Assembly (NCBI GenBank): GCA_900498135.1
Contig: LR026961.1
Location: forward strand, 2,154,693 to 2,218,692
Origin: an uncultured Desulfatiglans sp.
GTDB taxonomy: Bacteria; Desulfobacterota; DSM-4660; Desulfatiglandales; Desulfatiglandaceae
Reading direction: 5' to 3'
Length of the DNA: 64,000 nucleotides
The translations under genes and the position numbers were made by a program. The notes below the pieces were generated by a model. It did no database searches, was not told the DNA's origin, and worked only from the letters and a program-made list of their open reading frames with translations. This document shows positions 1-26,269 of this stretch, one piece after another; position 1 is the first letter of the stretch; each line of letters starts with the position of its first letter.

Positions 1-56
1 AGCGCACCTGAATGGGGTTCAGGGGGTCGGAGGTTCAAATCCTCTCGTCCCGACCA
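1..56 (+). tRNA. tRNA-Pro(GGG), 3' part only
   Basis: This is the 3' portion of a proline tRNA whose 5' part lies before the window. The anticodon stem CCTGA/TCAGG encloses the loop ATGGGGT, giving anticodon GGG, which reads CCC. The T arm has a 5-bp stem (GGAGG/CCTCT with one G-U pair) around TTCAAAT. The 3' acceptor strand CGTCCCG is followed by discriminator A and an encoded CCA. The acceptor 5' strand cannot be seen. Confidence 0.93.
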
Positions 57-17298: not shown

Positions 17299-17474
17299 GT
17301 ACCCATCCGGAAATGATTTTCCGGTACAACCCAGCTTCCAATCCGGAAATGAAGACTTTTTGCCCATATCAGGAAAATCCAGTACTTGCGCGGAGACGAC
17401 CTGTAGATCGCCGCACAAGCAAACGTCCAGATGAATGCCCAGATTGGCAAAAAAGACCATTTCCGGATGGAAAC
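17299..17474 (+). repeat. 176-bp foldback repeat, copy B
   Basis: Exactly 176 bases from GTACCCATCCGGAAATG to CATTTCCGGATGGAAAC, with the palindromic tip slightly changed (GACGACCTGTAGATCGCC). It follows the phosphofructokinase gene by 46 bases. Confidence 0.82.
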
Positions 17475-17613
17475 TCAAGCCTATGGGCTTGGAGGAATGA
17501 TTGCCCCCTCGATTTCCCGCTTGCAGTGTGAAAAGGGCCAGGGCACGGGTATCTGTCGAAGTTTGTGCCTCTTCACGGTCTGCAGCGGGGGATGTGCCGA
17601 CAACCCTTTGCCT

Positions 17614-18435
17614 TCACCGAACCTCGAAAGTGAAGGCCATATTGTGCATGTACTCGTCACAGGTTTCTTTGTCCGGGTAAGGGCTTCTGTGGGAGACGAC
17701 GATCATCCAGTAACCGGGCTCGGTGACGGAAACTGCCGCCTTCCCCTCGCTGTCGGTGACCGTGCTTACTGGAAAAGAGGGCTTATGGCCCTTGGGGTCT
17801 CGGTGAGGAGCGACGTCCTTGGATTGCCCCTGGGAGGTATATCCCGCGAATGTGGCGTTGACAGTGACCCCTTCGACTGCTTTTCCACGGAACAGGACTT
17901 TGAGGTTTAGCTTGTCCCCGGGCTTTATGTTTTTGGGATTGGAAAGAGGGATGATCTCCAATTCTTGGCCGGTGACCGCGCCGAGGCGCTCGTCATTTTC
18001 CCCTGCAATCATGATCGTTTTTGCCTCGATGGAGAAACTTGTGCAGGAAATGGCGTTTTCCACACCCTTCTTGTCGCTCCACTGCCTTCCTCTGGGTGTC
18101 ATGGTGAATACGCCGGGCTTGATCCCTGCGGTCACGAGATAGATGCCTTCCTTTTCGATCTTCAGCTTGTAGCGTTTCTCAGATATCATCTCAGGCTCCA
18201 CCTTCATGCCATCCGGATCCAGCACTTGCATATAAGCAAGGGTTCCAGGTTTCATTTCCTGATCCACGCGGCTGGCGGGGTAGGTGTGCCCCCATCCCAG
18301 GCCGATCTCAAGCGTTTCCCCCACTTTTGGGTAGTGGTTTTCAGGGTTGATCCAGATGTTGTGAGCCAGGGCTTGGGATCCGCCGAACAGAAGAAAGCAC
18401 GACAGTGCAAAAACTGACAACATTTTGATCTTCAT
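17614..18435 (-). CDS. DUF4198-domain periplasmic protein
   Basis: The 273-residue protein has a clear signal peptide (MKIKMLSVFALSCFLLFGG, cleavage after QALA). DUF4198 begins with HNIWINPENHYPKVGETLEIGLGWGHTYP and includes the EIIPLSNPKNIKPGDKLNLKVLF and GKAAVSVTEPGYWMIVVSHRSP segments. Family members sit in nickel/cobalt or other metal uptake loci and are thought to bind metal or chelate in the periplasm. AAGGAGG precedes ATG 18435. It is the last gene of a minus-strand set behind a TonB receptor and the exported methylase-domain protein, with repeat copy C between it and the latter. Confidence 0.85.
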   Translation of the reverse strand: MKIKMLSVFALSCFLLFGGSQALAHNIWINPENHYPKVGETLEIGLGWGHTYPASRVDQEMKPGTLAYMQVLDPDGMKVEPEMISEKRYKLKIEKEGIYLVTAGIKPGVFTMTPRGRQWSDKKGVENAISCTSFSIEAKTIMIAGENDERLGAVTGQELEIIPLSNPKNIKPGDKLNLKVLFRGKAVEGVTVNATFAGYTSQGQSKDVAPHRDPKGHKPSFPVSTVTDSEGKAAVSVTEPGYWMIVVSHRSPYPDKETCDEYMHNMAFTFEVR

Positions 18436-18603
18436 CGCAAACCTCCTTTTTCGATTACGCCGAGGGGAAATACGTGGTTTAGAAGATCCGCTGGGGATCT
18501 TCGAGATGCAATCACACGGTTATGGGCCGTCCTCCAAAGGTCTTGAGTTTGCCGTCTATGACAGTTCAACTCTGCTGATTCAAAATTGCACGCTTCCTAT
18601 CTT

Positions 18604-18779
18604 GTTTCCATCCGGAAATGATTTCGCGGTAGAACTCAGTTTCCAATCCGGAAATGAGGATTTTTGGCCAATATCAAGGAAATCAAGCGTTTGTGCGGAG
18701 GCGACCTGCAGGTCGCCGCACAAGCAAACGTGCAGATTGACGCCGAGATTGGCCAAAAAGACCATTTCCGGATGGAAAC
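18604..18779 (+). repeat. 176-bp foldback repeat, copy C
   Basis: Full-length copy with intact ends (GTTTCCATCCGGAAATG … CATTTCCGGATGGAAAC), inner end copy GTTTCCAATCCGGAAATG, and perfect tip GGCGACCTGCAGGTCGCC. It separates the methylase-domain gene from the DUF4198 gene. Confidence 0.87.
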
Positions 18780-18840
18780 TATCTTGGCGGAGCAACTGAA
18801 AAGGGGCCAAACATCAACCCGAGGGGGCAGTGGAGCGGTC

Positions 18841-20499
18841 TTACCTCTCCGCACCCACATCGAGGGAATCTCCAATATAGATCATATACTCGAAAGGCAG
18901 ATTTTCCGTTGCCTCTTGTCCCATTAAGCCGCTCAGCCTTCTCTTCGATACCATTTCCCTGCCGGCGTAACCGGCGCTCGATACAATGGCGACAGGCGTG
19001 TCAGGTGGATAGTGCGCAGACAGGATGTCGATGAATTTCTTGAATTCTGTGCGCATGGTGAAAAGCGCCATCGTGCACTGCAGCGGGGCCATTTCCTCTA
19101 CGGACCAGCCCGACGCGAGAACAACCGAGTGGAAGCGCCTATCGTCGGCGATTCCTTGCGCCAGGGCTGCATTGGCCGCGTTGAAGCAGCTCAGACCCGG
19201 TACGACTTCAGTGTCCACATCCTTCAACTCCTGGAGGGTCCAGGAGGAGGGCCCGTAAACGAGAGGGTCGCCGCTGTCCATCATGACGACTGTTTTTCCT
19301 TCTGCCACAGCCTTACGAACCCGCGCGGCAAATTCCGCCTGTTTTCGATGGAATTCATCGCAACTCATTTTTTCCTTCTTTTTTTCAGCGTCGCTTACTT
19401 CCGAACAGCTTTTCCCATAAAAGGGAAAGAGCCGATGGAACCCAAATATGACCTCCTTTCCTGACAGCTCTTTCTGAAAGCGATCACTGAGTTTCTCCGA
19501 AGCGAAGACCAGATCCGCCTTTTGGATGACTTCGAGGGCACGGAGGGTGGCCAAATCCGGGTCGCCGGGACCCGTCCCGACCAGGTAGAATTTGCCTGAT
19601 CCTTTTACCTTATCGGCAAAGGCTGCTCTGTAAGGGGCATCTTTCAAGGCCTTTCCAACATAAAGCAGATAAAAACCGGTGCCTTGCACGGGTGATTTCT
19701 GCTTAAGGTCCCCGATTGTACCCACATACACTCCGGTTTTTTCCTGCTGGCCTGCATGGTTGACAACTGCCACAGGCGTATCTGAAGGAAACGAGGCCGA
19801 AAGCCTTTTCACAAGATAGGCCATATCTCCGGGCACGAATATGACCAAGGTCGCCTTATCATACCGGGCTAGGTTTTCAAGGGTATCCTTTTGCTGTTCT
19901 GCGTCATCGCCGCAGAATGGCGTCGTAAGAATCACCTCGCCCAACCCTGCCCGGAGGACAGCGTTGGCGGCGTTAAAGGCACTCAGGCCAGGCACAACGC
20001 TTGGGTTGAGGTCGGCCAATTCTTGAAGCGTCCAAGCATCCGCTCCATAAAGGGTCGGGTCTCCAGGGCTCAAAAAGGCCATTTTTTTCCCCTCCGCTAC
20101 ACCCTTGCGGACGATCTCAGCCAATTCGGCCTGTTTGCCCTGGTAGGTTTCACAGGGGATGCCGTTTTTTTTGCGTTGATCCTCAGCGAGGGCGTTGCAG
20201 TCCTGCCTGTAGAAACTGCCTAGGCCCTGAAAGCCATCAAAGACCTGCTTCCTGTTGACGTCCACAAGGCTGGATAGCCTTTCACGGATGTCCGCGCTGC
20301 AAAAGACTACATCCGCACTCTGGATCGTTGACAGTGCCTTGGCAGTCAAAAGATCTGCGTCTCCTGGCCCGATACCTACCAGAAAAAAGGCGCCTCGGGT
20401 CGTTGCCTGTGTGCTTTGGATCTCCGATGAGGCTGCGCAGGCCATAAAAAGGCTGCACACACATGCCAAAATGCATGTCAGTATTCTCGTTTTTTTCAC
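18841..20499 (-). CDS. Exported protein with two tetrapyrrole (precorrin) methylase domains
   Basis: The 552-residue protein starts with a signal peptide (KKTRILTCILACVCSLFMAC; lipoprotein-like Cys possible). Two tandem CobM/CbiF-like domains follow. Domain 1 (about 36-300) has VGIGPGDADLLTAKAL, LSPGDPTLYGA and VPGLSAFNAANA. Domain 2 (about 303-545) repeats these as VGTGPGDPDLATLRAL, MDSGDPLVYG and VPGLSCFNAANA. These are the SAM- and tetrapyrrole-binding motifs. Each domain has an insert after a Phe-Tyr motif with two Cys exactly 15 positions apart, which suits a disulfide. SAM is not expected outside the cytoplasm, so a binding role (corrinoid, haem or metal chelate) is inferred. Start is GTG 20499. 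It lies behind the TonB receptor. Confidence 0.85.
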   Translation of the reverse strand: MKKTRILTCILACVCSLFMACAASSEIQSTQATTRGAFFLVGIGPGDADLLTAKALSTIQSADVVFCSADIRERLSSLVDVNRKQVFDGFQGLGSFYRQDCNALAEDQRKKNGIPCETYQGKQAELAEIVRKGVAEGKKMAFLSPGDPTLYGADAWTLQELADLNPSVVPGLSAFNAANAVLRAGLGEVILTTPFCGDDAEQQKDTLENLARYDKATLVIFVPGDMAYLVKRLSASFPSDTPVAVVNHAGQQEKTGVYVGTIGDLKQKSPVQGTGFYLLYVGKALKDAPYRAAFADKVKGSGKFYLVGTGPGDPDLATLRALEVIQKADLVFASEKLSDRFQKELSGKEVIFGFHRLFPFYGKSCSEVSDAEKKKEKMSCDEFHRKQAEFAARVRKAVAEGKTVVMMDSGDPLVYGPSSWTLQELKDVDTEVVPGLSCFNAANAALAQGIADDRRFHSVVLASGWSVEEMAPLQCTMALFTMRTEFKKFIDILSAHYPPDTPVAIVSSAGYAGREMVSKRRLSGLMGQEATENLPFEYMIYIGDSLDVGAER

Positions 20500-20648
20500 A
20501 ATCCTTTTCTCCTAGCTTCGTGTTCCAGTTATGTGGCTCTCTGTTGGACGACGGTGCCTGACTTCTCCTATTTCTGTCAACAGGTCCGCTCGGACCTTCC
20601 TTTTAACGCAATTTCACACCTGTAGGGAAAGATGAACATAAAAAAGGC
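20500..20648 (-). promoter_or_regulatory. Spacer between receptor and methylase-domain genes
   Basis: The 149-base spacer holds a small perfect hairpin (GGTCCGAGCGGACC on the minus strand, about 20584-20597). I looked for a cobalamin riboswitch box here and did not find its conserved order. The hairpin could process or attenuate the mRNA between the two genes. Confidence 0.3.
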
Positions 20649-22862
20649 CTAAAACGTCAAAGAGGCCATAAATACCGCTGTGAAGGGACCACCTGGGTAG
20701 TAACTGGCGCTGCCACCCGTGGTGTAGTCAGATGCCCTGATGTAGGAGATATACTCCTTGTCAAACAGGTTGTTGAGGTCCAGAGACAATTTGAGAGACT
20801 TTGCAATGGGGATTTTGTCCCATTCGTAAGCCAATCGCAGATCAGCGATTGCATAGGCATCGACTTTTTGGGAGTTCTCTGCATTCGCATAGCGGGAACT
20901 CATGAATCTCACCATCGGAATAATTTCCAGGTTCTCCCATTTAAATAACAAACCCGCTTTCACAAGGAATTCGGGCGTATCCACCACTTGGTTGTCTTTT
21001 ATGGTGATGATGCTCCCGTTTGAGTCGATGTCTTCATCGTACCGGAGCACAGTCCAACTCGGATTGATGAAAAACGTCAAAGGCTTAGCCAGGTAAAAAT
21101 TCGCACCGACATCGATTCCGTAGCCGCTGGCCTCCGCGGAATTCTGTTGGTAGCTGAGATCTACCCGCGGGTCGTAGACATTGGTGAAGAGGTTTTTGCT
21201 CTTGTTGAAGAAAACGGTAGGTGTGATGTCGAACCAGGAGGTATTCCAGCGAACGCCTACATCGACGGTGTCTGTCTCTTCCATTTCGTAGCCGCTGAAA
21301 AGGTCGTTCAGTGTGATGCCCGCGTCAATAAATCGCTGCCGGTAGGTGTTGTAAAGGTTGACCAGAGGCATGTATGAATAAGGTCGAATAAAGCTTTTCC
21401 CGTAACTCGCATAGACTTGGAAGGCCTCTGAAAAATGATATCCAACCCCCAATGTGGGTAGCAGGATGTCGTAAACCCTTTCCTCTCGGTCTAAATCAGG
21501 CGCCCGCACCAGTTCGTAGGTCTTGGAGTCCGTGACGTATCCTTGGCTGGCACCTTCGTCATATCTGAAATACTTGAGCCCGGCTTGTAGATCAAAGTCT
21601 TCATAGGTGCCTGCAATTTTGAAGTAAGGGCTGTTTATGTAGGAAGCGCTAGGCGAGGCGAAATTTCCATAACCTTGCCAGGCAAGTCCTGATGACGTGA
21701 TGCCGTAGTTTTCTGAAAAAATTTTCATATCGTTCTTTTCAAAATGATAGCCTAAGGTAGCCGTGAATATGTCGGCATCCCATTTTGCTTCAGCGATGGC
21801 GCCAGGACGTTCGATGTCTCGATTTCTTTTTTGAATGCGGCCACCGCCCGAAGTGACGCCTTGATAGATCTGCGAGTCTTCGACGCTGTAATATGGTTTG
21901 ATAGTGAAAATCAAGTTCTGAAAGTGATTAATAGTGATAAGTCCGAGAACATCCGTGTTTTTATAGGCTCCCGTGTTATACTTATAATAATAGATGTCTT
22001 GGGATTTCTTCCCGGTCAAATCCGGGTTGTAGTCAAATTTATAACTATCTGAAAGATTTTGAACCTGGCTATAGCTGAGAGCTCTATACAAATCTTGTTT
22101 TAGATCGTTATAGTTGAACCAGACATCTATACTGACTTCCTGGCCGAGAGGTTGTGATAATGCCAAATTTGCATTGTTTCTGGGCCCGATTTCTCCCGGA
22201 CCTTTCCACTTGTCGGCTTGTGTATAGGAATAGGACCCCGAAAACCGCGTATCAAAATCTGTCAGTGATCCAGAATCCAACCTTAAAAAAGTTCGATTGT
22301 AGCTGTCGGTGCCTACACCCTGATTAATGATCGCCCCGAATTCCTTCGCGGGCCAACGCGGTTTCAATTCGATCGCCCCACCCCGGTCTCCGACGCCCGT
22401 CCCGAGGTCTCCGGGCACTGCCCCCTTATAGACCGAGATTGACTGCAGGTTTTCCATGTCATAGATGTAATCGCGGGGGCCGATGGGGTTTCCACCGTAA
22501 TTGGGCACCCCTTCAACCGTCATGGCACCCAATGATCCTCGCATCCCTCGGATTCGGGAGGAGCTTTGCTCCGCGCTCAGGCCATATGGATCGGCGCTTT
22601 CCACACTGATCCCGGGAAGGATGTCGATGGCTTTGTACACACTGGTTTTAGCACTGGGCCCTTGGCTGTCTATGCCCTCTTTGGTCACTTCAGTACCGGT
22701 GTAGACCGTGTCATCCAATTGCATGGTGGGGGCGAAGAGTTTTTCTCCGCTGATCCGGACCTCTCCGATTTCGATAGGCTCCTCGCCCATGGCTGTTATG
22801 GGCGCCATGAGGCCGAAAAGGCTTACTATGGCGGCCAGTGCCATATTCTCCAAAAGCCGCAT
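20649..22862 (-). CDS. TonB-dependent outer-membrane receptor
   Basis: The 737-residue protein has a signal peptide (cleavage near TAMG-EE) and a plug domain (about 40-180) with SVYKAIDILPGISVES, RIRGMRGSLGAMTVEGVPNYGG and LQSISVYKGAVPGDLG. A beta-barrel to the C-terminus ends in Phe (TAVFMASLTF), the usual outer-membrane signal. Segments such as VYASYGKSFIRPYSY and GVRWNTSWFDITPTVFFN are typical of siderophore or metal-chelate receptors. The substrate cannot be told from sequence, but the neighbours point to a tetrapyrrole or metal chelate. GGAGG lies 6 bases before ATG 22862. A half copy of the dispersed repeat begins only 24 bases upstream of the start codon. Confidence 0.92.
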   Translation of the reverse strand: MRLLENMALAAIVSLFGLMAPITAMGEEPIEIGEVRISGEKLFAPTMQLDDTVYTGTEVTKEGIDSQGPSAKTSVYKAIDILPGISVESADPYGLSAEQSSSRIRGMRGSLGAMTVEGVPNYGGNPIGPRDYIYDMENLQSISVYKGAVPGDLGTGVGDRGGAIELKPRWPAKEFGAIINQGVGTDSYNRTFLRLDSGSLTDFDTRFSGSYSYTQADKWKGPGEIGPRNNANLALSQPLGQEVSIDVWFNYNDLKQDLYRALSYSQVQNLSDSYKFDYNPDLTGKKSQDIYYYKYNTGAYKNTDVLGLITINHFQNLIFTIKPYYSVEDSQIYQGVTSGGGRIQKRNRDIERPGAIAEAKWDADIFTATLGYHFEKNDMKIFSENYGITSSGLAWQGYGNFASPSASYINSPYFKIAGTYEDFDLQAGLKYFRYDEGASQGYVTDSKTYELVRAPDLDREERVYDILLPTLGVGYHFSEAFQVYASYGKSFIRPYSYMPLVNLYNTYRQRFIDAGITLNDLFSGYEMEETDTVDVGVRWNTSWFDITPTVFFNKSKNLFTNVYDPRVDLSYQQNSAEASGYGIDVGANFYLAKPLTFFINPSWTVLRYDEDIDSNGSIITIKDNQVVDTPEFLVKAGLLFKWENLEIIPMVRFMSSRYANAENSQKVDAYAIADLRLAYEWDKIPIAKSLKLSLDLNNLFDKEYISYIRASDYTTGGSASYYPGGPFTAVFMASLTF

Positions 22863-22885
22863 ATATTCCTCCGATTGCTCTTATT

Positions 22886-22970
22886 GTGTTTCCATCCGGA
22901 AATAGTCTTTTTTGCCAATTTCGGCGTTGATCTGTACGTTTGCCGGTGCGGCAACCTACAGGCCGCCTCC
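22886..22970 (-). repeat. Half foldback repeat (copy G)
   Basis: Only one arm is present, from GTTTCCATCCGGAAATAG to the tip (GTGCGGCAACCTACAGGCCGCC). Similarity stops just past the central palindrome. Its outer end lies 24 bases from the TonB-receptor start codon, so the receptor transcript probably begins in or reads across it. Confidence 0.7.
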
Positions 22971-23402
22971 GTTTCCGTTTCTATTCTCTTGAGCGGTTTT
23001 TCGCGTCACATCCTTTGCCTTTCCATCTTTTTCGCCTGAACCGATGCTGCACGAAGCCTGTTTATCGCCGATCGGGCGAACATCCGAGCACTACGTTCCG
23101 GCAAAAAAAAACCACAAAGGTCACCGATCGCCATAATCGGAAGCCTTCGTGGCCTGATTGATTTCGGGAATTGCAGGGCGCGGGTTTAGGACGAATGGTG
23201 CGCCCAAGCCCGCTATGTTCGAGGTTCGCGGTTACTGGTCGAGATTATACTTTGTACGGGAGCATCTTCGTGAAGATCCCGCGGCTAACAGAACCCGCCA
23301 GCGAAAAGTTTGTAACCGATTCACCTTTGAAAATCAAGAAAAATATAGAAGAAGAGGGTTGGCATTGGCTTTCCCTGCGACTTGGACGCCGCTTTTAAGG
23401 GT
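22971..23402. other. Gap upstream of the TonB receptor
   Basis: No gene was seen. It contains the minus-strand terminator listed at 23103-23154. I searched for Fur-type boxes and a cobalamin riboswitch and saw neither clearly. Confidence 0.3.
23103..23154 (-). terminator. Minus-strand terminator with CCACGAAGG stem
   Basis: Read on the minus strand, GGCCACGAAGG pairs with CCTTTGTGG (one G-U), with an inner CCGAT/ATCGG hairpin, and nine T residues follow. It would end transcription from the MBL/GNAT gene before the receptor gene. The outer stem is nearly the same as that at 6805-6860. Confidence 0.7.
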
Positions 23403-23578
23403 AGTTCCACCCGGAAATGATTTCCCGGTAGAACCCAGTTTCCAATCCGGAAATGAGGATTTTTGGCCAATATCAAGGAAATCAAGCGTTTGCGCGGAGG
23501 CGACCTGCCGGTCGCTGCACAAGTAAACCTGCACATTGACGCCGAGATTGGCCAAAACGACCATTTCCGGATGAAAAC
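23403..23578 (+). repeat. 176-bp foldback repeat, copy D
   Basis: Exactly 176 bases, with ends AGTTCCACCCGGAAATG and CATTTCCGGATGAAAAC. The tip is slightly diverged (GGCGACCTGCCGGTCGCTG). It lies downstream of the MBL/GNAT gene. Confidence 0.82.
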
Positions 23579-23698
23579 TGTTATGCTCCCAGGGGTATAT
23601 GGGAGGTTGAGGAAACACCGGATTTGATGTTTGCACCGGCCGCACCTCCGCTTGGATAGCTTCCTTCCCTGAGATGTCAGGTGCCCGAAGGGCTACTT

Positions 23699-26269
23699 TC
23701 AGGCTATCCAGATGCCCTCCAGATAAGAAGCTGTAAAATCCAGCATGATCCTAGGTTGATTGCTCTTCAGGTTCCAGGAGACGAAAGGCACCAGCTGGTC
23801 GGTAATGGCATCCTTTTCGAGCCCCAGATGGTCCGCGATCGTGGCGAGAGCCTGCCTCACGGTGGCGACCAGGACCTGGTCGAGCCGTGAAGCGGCGTTG
23901 ACGGCCTTGAGTTTCGGGTTGCTCTGCAGCTCCGCCAGCGCCTCATCCCAGTGGATGGCGTCGATCTGACGGCGGAGGACGTAGCCGTTGCCGCGGTCCC
24001 GGATGATGAAGAGGATCGGGTTGACCTTCAGCCAGGCGCCCTTGATCTTGACGTCTTTGAAGGATGCGCCGATCCGCTCCAGCAGTTCGTTTTTCTTCTG
24101 GAGCCCCTCGATCTGGCGCGCCTGAACCCGTTCAATGATATACGGTTCGTTGTCGATGGCGATTTCTTTCAAGCGGGTCGGGTCGAACCCGAGGTCCATG
24201 AGATCGCCTAGCGTCAGCGGGTCCGTGTAGGACTTGCCGCGCTCCTCGAGCCAGGCCATGAAGCTCGGCCGCCGGTAGTTCGGCAGGGCCTCGATGGCGC
24301 GGGCCGGGTCCTGGGTCAGATCGGCCGGGAGGCGCGAGAGCAGGTCGAGCCGGCCCGCGCAGACAGGGCTCTTGTCCGCGAGTTCCCGCGGGGCGTAGCT
24401 CTTGATCTGAAGATTCGCGACCTCCGGTGCCAGGGTGATCTGTCCGGCGGACTCGCCGCCCGTGTAGCCGATCAGTGAACCGATGCGGCGTCTGAAGGCG
24501 ATGAATTTTGTGACGAAGCGGGTGAACATGAACCGCATGTAAACGGATGACTGCCTCGCATCGATCTCCGCCCCGAAATACGTGCACAGGGTCCGGTAAA
24601 GGGTTTGGAACTCCTCCAGGGTGCGCCGCACCATGACCTCGTTGTCCCGCGCGTCAATGACGGCGCGCTTCCGGTTGAGGTGATAGAGAAGCTTCAGGAG
24701 CGCCGGCTTCAGATCGTGTTCTTTGAAGGCCGGCGGAATGAAGACCATGTAGTTCGAGTCCTTTTCCAGGGCCGTCTCCCCGACGATTTCCGTGACGGGT
24801 TTCCAGGCTTGCTTCAGATAGATATCGTAGGTCGGGTCCTGATTGGGGATGATGTTGTCGAGGATCCCCAAGGCGGATTTCCCGGTCAGAAAAGCCCCGA
24901 AGTGTTCGAGAATGCGGGTCCCCAACCCCTTCCTGCGAAAGGGGGCGGCGACCTCCACGTAGACCAGGTAGTAGCAGGGGGCGGGTTTCTTGAGGTAGAG
25001 CATGTTGAGGCGCCCCAGGCTTTCGCCGGTTTCGGCTTCGATCTCGAGTTGATGGAAGCCGTTCTCGGAATCCCCCGGCCGTTGGCGGCTAATCCGGCTG
25101 CCGGCGACGGTGGCGTCCACGAGGTCCCAGAGGTCGTTGAAGAGATCGGCCACGATCGGGGCGTCCGGAAGCCCGCGGCGCATGCCTTCGTCGATCAGCG
25201 CCACGAGGCTCAGGCGTTCGGAGGCACTGAGGGTTTTTTCGCCGATGGGCAGGCGGAGGGGGGAGATCTGCCGGTGTTCTGCGGGGCTTGAATCCGCATC
25301 GCGCCGGGGTTCGGGAATCGCCTCTTCTGCAGCGGCCCCCGGGCGACAGGGGGAGGGCCCGGAGGCCACTTCCCTGGACCGTATGATCATCAGGCGGGAG
25401 AGGTCGTACATCACCTTGAAGGGCTGAATGTCCGTCAGACCGCTTACGAAGCGCGCTTTGTCGAGGGCGATCGCCCCAGCGTTCTCGCCGGCGGCGAGGC
25501 GGTTCACCATCTCCGTGTGGTATTCCTCGGCTGCCGCGATGGCCTTTGCAATGAATCGACCGGCCCCGCCGTTCACAACGCCGTTGTGGCTGAGGATCAC
25601 CCGTTCGGCCTGGAGGGTCTCGAGCCTTCGGAGGCTTGCGCAGTATTGCCCCAGGGAAACGAAGTAATTGGGCCAGAAGATGTCCTTTTCGGGAAGATAG
25701 AATCCGGCTGCGTCTCCGATGGCGATCGTTTTTTCTTTTTGTTCGTAGAGCGACATGTGGCAGGGGGAATGTCCGGGGGTGGCGATCGCCTGCCAGACGA
25801 CGCCTTGACCGAGTTCGATGCTGTCTCCGTCGCGGATGATGAGGTCCGCCTCGAAGCGAAAGTCGCGGAGCGACGGGGGCATGGCCGCAAGCTCCGCCTT
25901 GGCCTTCAGCAGCTGGGCGATGCCGAGGTCCACCAGGATGAATTCCCGCTGCAATTCGGGGGTGCTCAGGATCTCGGCGCCCGGAGCGCTGACGACGAGC
26001 TTCAGATGCGGCCAGATCCGTTTGAGATACGGCACGGCCCCGATGTGGTCGGCATGGGTGTGGGTCAAAAAGACATATTCTATGCGGTTCGGATCGATGC
26101 CAAGGCTCAGGATCTGTTCTGCGATGAGGGTCGAAGTGGGGCCTGTCCCCCCTTCGATGATCATTCCGGAGTCGCCCAGGGAGAGGTATACCGGGAAGGC
26201 CGGTATGCCAAGCTGAAACAGGTGGGGTGTCACGGCGATCGCGGGGTGTTCTTTGGGGTGGTCTTCCAT
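23699..26269 (-). CDS. Large fusion: metallo-beta-lactamase fold + GNAT-like domain + unknown C-terminus
   Basis: 856 residues. The N-terminal MBL domain (about 1-250) has the zinc motif THTHADHIG, the metal Asp in AIGDAAGFYLP and an ATPGHSPCHMSLY segment, as in hydroxyacylglutathione-hydrolase-like enzymes. A Pro/Glu-rich linker (about 305-345) leads to a region with a GNAT acetyl-CoA loop (APFRRKGLGTRILEHF, about 440-455). The last 350 residues (e.g. YMRFMFTRFVTKFIAFRRRIGSLIGYTGG) are not recognised, and the basic, helical content suggests nucleic-acid or membrane association. The role is unknown. It is the only gene behind the leader at 26363-26446 and has a weak Shine-Dalgarno. Confidence 0.75.
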   Translation of the reverse strand: MEDHPKEHPAIAVTPHLFQLGIPAFPVYLSLGDSGMIIEGGTGPTSTLIAEQILSLGIDPNRIEYVFLTHTHADHIGAVPYLKRIWPHLKLVVSAPGAEILSTPELQREFILVDLGIAQLLKAKAELAAMPPSLRDFRFEADLIIRDGDSIELGQGVVWQAIATPGHSPCHMSLYEQKEKTIAIGDAAGFYLPEKDIFWPNYFVSLGQYCASLRRLETLQAERVILSHNGVVNGGAGRFIAKAIAAAEEYHTEMVNRLAAGENAGAIALDKARFVSGLTDIQPFKVMYDLSRLMIIRSREVASGPSPCRPGAAAEEAIPEPRRDADSSPAEHRQISPLRLPIGEKTLSASERLSLVALIDEGMRRGLPDAPIVADLFNDLWDLVDATVAGSRISRQRPGDSENGFHQLEIEAETGESLGRLNMLYLKKPAPCYYLVYVEVAAPFRRKGLGTRILEHFGAFLTGKSALGILDNIIPNQDPTYDIYLKQAWKPVTEIVGETALEKDSNYMVFIPPAFKEHDLKPALLKLLYHLNRKRAVIDARDNEVMVRRTLEEFQTLYRTLCTYFGAEIDARQSSVYMRFMFTRFVTKFIAFRRRIGSLIGYTGGESAGQITLAPEVANLQIKSYAPRELADKSPVCAGRLDLLSRLPADLTQDPARAIEALPNYRRPSFMAWLEERGKSYTDPLTLGDLMDLGFDPTRLKEIAIDNEPYIIERVQARQIEGLQKKNELLERIGASFKDVKIKGAWLKVNPILFIIRDRGNGYVLRRQIDAIHWDEALAELQSNPKLKAVNAASRLDQVLVATVRQALATIADHLGLEKDAITDQLVPFVSWNLKSNQPRIMLDFTASYLEGIWIA

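Follow-up and report, generated by a model that had tools for sequence, protein, structure and literature searches.

What might a protein with the fold of a cobalamin-synthesis methyltransferase be doing outside of the cytoplasm, encoded between an outer-membrane receptor and a metal-binding protein? This question is raised by three minus-strand genes found within 64,000 nucleotides from an uncultured Desulfatiglans sp. (contig LR026961.1 of assembly GCA_900498135.1, positions 2,154,693 to 2,218,692), a stretch which in its entirety I describe here as ‘the window’. The central gene specifies two tandem domains of tetrapyrrole-methylase (TPM) fold, and its product is termed here TPM2; to its sides are genes for a TonB-dependent receptor and a DUF4198 protein. 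The conserved module to which these belong is real and apparently undescribed, i.e., literature searches for the part set, with coverage mostly excluding subscription journals, found nothing. I consider it moderately likely that TPM2 serves as a periplasmic ligand handler in the TonB-dependent uptake of a cobalt or nickel chelate or instead of a corrinoid, the ligand being presumptive. A periplasmic part in cobalt- or nickel-chelate uptake is probable, that is, because across relatives the exported TPM adjoins a receptor along with a nickel/cobalt-type binding protein.

The features of the locus are as follows:

20649-22862, minus strand: TonB-dependent outer-membrane receptor, 737 amino acids, with plug (PF07715) and barrel (PF00593).
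18841-20499, minus strand: TPM2, a predicted exported double TPM-fold protein, 552 amino acids, GTG start, with two PF00590 domains (E 1.6e-78).
20437-20499, minus strand: predicted signal peptide of TPM2, residues 1-21, with lipobox-like Cys21, as based on sequence, homologue alignment, and a hydrophobic N-terminus test.
19630-20394, minus strand: TPM domain 1, residues ~36-290, with the Cys101/Cys116 pair.
18862-19596, minus strand: TPM domain 2, residues ~302-546, with the Cys365/Cys380 pair and a predicted CobM-like fold.
17614-18435, minus strand: DUF4198 (NikK-like) protein, predicted periplasmic (PF10670, E 2.1e-38).

A first-pass annotation of this DNA had described the same three genes, and open reading frames along with Pfam domains confirm that description. 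The genes are co-directional, with gaps of ~150 and ~405 nucleotides, the second of which is occupied by a dispersed repeat, and the GTG start of the TPM2 gene is preceded by a good AGGAG-like ribosome site. The family motifs that had been noted are present as well, reading GIGPGD, SPGDP, and PGLSAFNAAN in domain 1 and GTGPGD, SGDP, and PGLSCFNAAN in domain 2.

Export of TPM2, also claimed at first pass, is well supported by signal-like N-termini, lipobox cysteines, and invariant cysteine pairs, all as read from sequence. The N-terminus itself, MKKTRILTCILACVCSLFMACAAS, has a hydrophobic core with cysteine as residue 21, a column which is cysteine in 10 of the 12 homologues possessing a residue there, and looks lipoprotein-like. 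By a simple test used in place of a signal-peptide predictor, i.e., for a 10-residue hydrophobic window ahead of the TPM domain, signal-like N-termini are seen in 69/81 exported TPM reading frames versus 0/48 canonical ones. Cys101, Cys116, Cys365, and Cys380, moreover, are invariant across 17/17 tandem sequences and are located within an insert carried by each domain, which suggests one disulfide per domain.

Homologues of TPM2 form a family of their own. The relatives searched were Desulfobacterota, and full-length tandem homologues were found in 3 of the first 148, at 53-60% identity. The double protein is now seen in 16 named loci, all of them from Desulfobacterota (47-60% identity), with carriers including NaphS2, Desulfosarcina, Desulfatitalea, Desulfonema magnum, Desulfocarbo, Desulfarculus, Dethiosulfatarculus, and Candidatus Electrothrix gigas. 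Single-domain exported relatives are commoner than tandem ones. A plasmid collection supplied only ordinary cobalamin-type enzymes, at ~25-31% identity among the best matches. Tandem proteins score >880 bits, exported single or fused proteins ~90-290, and canonical enzymes up to ~125, the latter two classes overlapping slightly in score and being separated by tree and N-terminus. A FastTree phylogeny covering 156 domains places every one of the 98 exported TPM domains in one clade (support 0.967), which has zero canonical members. The tandem N-terminal halves are monophyletic, as too are the C-terminal halves, and therefore a single old duplication would seem to have given rise to the tandem form. 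One candidate, L142, was taken by score as an exported TPM and then rejected, as the tree places it as a CbiF-like canonical protein.

Fusions are seen as well among exported proteins. One (L114:2413-3975, minus strand) joins DUF4198 with a TPM in a single exported protein; others, from this same genome (L049:9505-11493, minus strand) and from L126 and L128, join an exported oxidoreductase-molybdopterin-type domain to a TPM, near TonB receptors. A nucleoside-hydrolase domain fused to FmdE, also exported, is found beside exported TPMs in L043 (7892-9400, plus strand), L044, L046, and L130.

Gene neighborhoods were compared between 69 exported-TPM loci, chosen by TPM similarity alone, and 20 canonical CbiF-type loci handled identically, counting neighbors within 5 kilobases on the same strand. 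A TonB receptor is present in 60/69 versus 0/20, DUF4198 in 32/69, an APC permease in 31/69, NikL in 18/69, and ExbB/D in 10/69, these too versus 0/20 in each case, with the 69 loci being partly non-independent (shared genomes), some contigs short, and one locus (L142) actually canonical. Tandem loci typically begin with the TonB receptor, followed by TPM2, DUF4198, APC permease, and then a small, histidine-led, NikL-like protein. The three-gene set is beyond chance because it recurs across many genomes. The APC permease homologue of this genome is placed elsewhere, away from the cluster (C1:2994569-2995924), and a supposed premature stop in that gene was rejected, the apparent stop being the terminal codon.

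Could TPM2 instead be an ordinary cytoplasmic cobalamin enzyme, with its N-terminus misread and its neighbors there by chance? Its family motifs are those which such an enzyme would possess, and TPM2’s best NCBIfam match is the CobM equivalog. That match, however, at 181.9 bits falls below the cut-off of 259.65, and family-wide signal-like N-termini, the invariant cysteine pairs, a separate clade, and the receptor association all argue otherwise. Both cytoplasmic enzyme and chance neighborhood consequently are rejected as contradicted by family evidence, and this explanation retains next to no probability.

As to what the exported fold may do, an AlphaFold model of TPM2 (pLDDT 80, pTM 0.82, alignment of 17 sequences) finds its best structural match in CobM (3ndc; Z 17.3, 2.4 Å, 219 residues), VIA-align structural comparison having been chiefly of domain 2, with domain 1 approached via sequence comparison. 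The first-pass suggestion that a CobM/CbiF fold had been recruited is supported. Contacts with S-adenosylmethionine (SAM) were mapped from a list for R. capsulatus CobM (PMC6478909). The equivalents of Pro10, Gly82, Asp83, Ser112, and Ala193 are invariant in both tandem halves (19/19 each), while the Leu165 position is replaced by Phe or Thr. Of 44 single exported relatives, 31 instead have Gly for Ser112 and 14 have Asn for Asp83; of 16 fused ones, 12 have Cys for Pro10. The precorrin-side loop YAGSLV, present in 15/15 CbiF, is missing from every exported group. The pattern would be consistent with retention of a small-molecule pocket alongside loss of native precorrin chemistry. TPM2 thus resembles CobM/CbiF, the (cobalt-)precorrin-4 C11-methyltransferase of PF00590, in fold and in its GxGPGD, GDP, and PGxS motifs, but differs in being exported, duplicated, in possessing a disulfide-bearing insert, in lacking YAGSLV, and in residing beside TonB receptors rather than cob genes.

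An active periplasmic methyltransferase, or other tetrapyrrole-modifying enzyme employing an unusual donor, is an explanation to which those five invariant SAM contacts and the modeled CobM-like fold both lend something. A periplasmic cobaltochelatase, in addition, has been reported from Desulfovibrio. I know of no periplasmic SAM pool, however, the precorrin loop is lost, and single or fused relatives at similar loci have lost SAM contacts (i.e., the Ser112 and Pro10 replacements), all of which leaves an active enzyme improbable. TPM2 probably is not a methyltransferase, and likely binds its ligand rather than methylating it.

That this ligand carries cobalt or nickel is suggested by the company which exported TPMs keep. 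DUF4198 can no longer be called uncharacterized, as this is a secreted nickel-binding family with His1 as ligand and a Kd of 18 nM (PMC12537917). The window’s DUF4198 protein scores 133 bits against PF10670 (cut-off 34) and has a predicted mature N-terminus of HNIW following ALA, i.e., beginning with His25 of the precursor; it also has a GWGH motif. Histidine is found at the predicted mature N-terminus of 33 of 34 DUF4198 relatives, and GWGH, which might hold a counterpart of the second histidine ligand (His18 of the Ideonella protein), is kept in 29 of 34. In my reading, DUF4198 would be the NikK of nickel/cobalt energy-coupling factor (ECF) systems (PMC545781, PMC2667541). NikL-like neighbors match the NikL family below cut-off, and a CbiM that passes its cut-off adjoins the TPM clusters of two loci, L036 and L122, the only ones with CbiMQO near those clusters. 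Relatives thus share with Ni/Co ECF transporters (PMC2667541, PMC545781, PMC12537917) a DUF4198 with mature histidine, a NikL-like neighbor, and, in two loci, CbiMQO. Unlike those systems, NikM/Q/O are absent around the window’s cluster, as judged from open reading frames and domain searches, and exported TPM plus APC permease are unreported in those papers.

The main rival emerges from the permease. That is, what is imported might be an amino-acid-type cobalt or nickel metallophore (histidine or opine/nicotianamine-like), with the SAM pocket holding the amino-acid moiety and chelate or amino-acid product entering through the APC permease. In NCBIfam that permease best matches amino-acid transporters, the L-type among them, though below cut-off, and it adjoins exported TPMs even at loci without DUF4198, such as L126 and L128; nickel binding by DUF4198 and the retained SAM contacts would suit a metallophore too. 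Nicotianamine synthase, on the other hand, was found in 1 of 12 carrier genomes and in none of the other 11, but a scavenged metallophore need not be self-made, and cobalamin riboswitches better match a corrinoid or cobalt. I view metallophore import as unlikely, if first among the alternatives.

Those riboswitches are found at two related loci, L062 (7366-7556, upstream of a receptor reading frame from 7540 whose true start likely is ~150 nucleotides downstream) and L067 (7069-7256, upstream of a receptor reading frame from 7744), scoring 104-107 bits. Coincidence is unlikely, as Desulfocarbo possesses 16 cobalamin riboswitches in 5.1 megabases. Along with DUF4198/NikK, the NikL-like partners, and CbiMQO, they uphold the first-pass direction toward cobalt, nickel, or tetrapyrrole. 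A receptor under such a riboswitch is reminiscent of BtuB-BtuFCD B12 uptake, though no BtuFCD adjoins, and the window receptor, at 37.3 bits, falls far short of the TonB-B12 equivalog cut-off of 599.7. A separate cobalamin riboswitch (L060:19787-19970) lies upstream of a major facilitator superfamily transporter of RhtX/FptX or AmpG type.

A more specific version of corrinoid uptake may also be considered, in which TPM2 is a cobamide-binding protein that reads adenosyl-cobamide as a bisubstrate analogue, the SAM pocket accommodating the adenosyl group and the precorrin trough the corrin ring. This I regard as quite unlikely, though were it true then an enzyme of B12 biosynthesis would have become a periplasmic B12-coenzyme receptor, partnering with often selenocysteine-containing receptors and a cobalt/nickel-binding DUF4198.

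The preferred reading, uptake of a cobalt or nickel chelate or corrinoid, can be pictured as follows. The receptor would carry a Co- or Ni-bearing chelate, possibly a corrinoid, over the outer membrane. TPM2, as a lipoprotein in which a CobM/CbiF-type fold is ‘frozen’ as a covalent pseudo-dimer with one disulfide lock per domain, would then take or park this ligand in the periplasm, in the former SAM plus tetrapyrrole pocket. The DUF4198 protein might next accept metal or metal chelate, this order of hand-over being conjectural, and inner-membrane passage would occur in most relatives via APC permease, NikL-like protein, or ECF CbiMQO transporter.

Various points weigh against this reading. 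The TPM2 model was built on 17 sequences, at a pLDDT of 80, and complete retention of SAM contacts in tandem proteins makes methyl transfer possible. L062 and L067 are both of the Desulfocarbo/Dethiosulfatarculus lineage and may represent one event; the window has no cobalamin riboswitch at gathering or permissive thresholds, nor do most related exported-TPM loci, with distant ones seen only in L060 and L047. This genome, furthermore, already has a riboswitch-linked TonB receptor elsewhere; besides that separate receptor, its four cobalamin riboswitches are linked to genes for cobalamin synthesis and to a BtuF-like protein. The separate receptor is a further difference from BtuB-BtuFCD. NikR-like sites, of delta-proteobacterial and enterobacterial type, show no excess over shuffles. 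An amino-acid permease is at odds with a corrinoid.

The partners of certain sub-lineages, i.e., FmdE, TupA/ModA-like binding proteins, molybdopterin-domain fusions, and a FecCD-type permease, point, FecCD aside, to other metals, and together raise the alternative that molybdenum/tungsten, iron, or other metal chelates are handled, with the cobalt/nickel clues confined to some lineages. The window receptor itself is closest to siderophore receptors, below cut-off, its nearest solved relative being the enantio-pyochelin receptor 3qlb, a weak match. In the tandem branch, which is the window’s own, the partners nevertheless are DUF4198, an APC permease, and a NikL-like protein, with neither FmdE nor TupA among them, and handling of other metals consequently seems rather unlikely.

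Many partner receptors of related loci are selenoproteins, which along with the APC permease and the frequent loss of SAM contacts in single and fused relatives is what the first-pass annotation missed in an interpretation that is supported in part. An in-frame TGA within RLPCPUDYYWW marks PCPU-type receptors at 13 loci (L039, L043, L044, L045, L048, L060, L120, L121, L123, L129, L130, L139, L149), with CxxU variants at three (L056, L060, L114). Two score above cut-off, L043 as PCPU (NF049947, 1287 bits) and L114 as FCYXU (NF049945, 880 bits). These belong among the selenocysteine TonB receptors of NF049944-NF049947 (PUIUD, FCYXU, CU, and PCPU types), whereas the receptor encoded in the window differs in type, with no match to those models and no in-frame TGA. 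The Desulfatiglans genome does possess tRNA-Sec, and at its locus L048 a PCPU receptor adjoins a further TPM from the exported clade, one whose annotated start lacks a clear signal peptide. A tRNA-Sec gene (L139:3305-3392, minus strand) adjoins an exported-TPM/selenocysteine-receptor cluster. Hairpins resembling selenocysteine insertion sequences follow the selenocysteine codon, with energies not clearly beyond those of shuffles. Selenoprotein TonB receptors already are known (PMC12013277, PMC13188914), without mention of a TPM partner, and no description linking them to exported TPMs was found in the literature searched.

A SAM-enzyme fold of B12 synthesis thus has given rise to a monophyletic exported family tied to TonB receptors across Desulfobacterota. 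If the preferred reading is true, outer-membrane uptake would have in this family a periplasmic partner of a novel kind. The family would supply a functional setting for selenocysteine TonB receptors as well as for orphan NikK/NikL proteins, whose neighborhoods earlier work left unexplained (PMC2667541), and makes capture of cobalt/nickel or corrinoid by sulfate reducers directly testable. Annotation pipelines, meanwhile, may mislabel exported TPMs as cobalamin methyltransferases.

Around the cluster, the dispersed intergenic repeat of 175 nucleotides flanks genes in direct orientation at 17301-17475, 18606-18780, and 23405-23579, and inverted at 22884-22971, with ~42 near full-length copies genome-wide. 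Upstream (23699-26269, minus strand) is encoded an 856-amino-acid protein whose N-terminal domain is of the metallo-beta-lactamase type and whose long remainder is uncharacterized, and at positions 1-53 (plus strand) is the 3' part of a tRNA, truncated by the window’s start.

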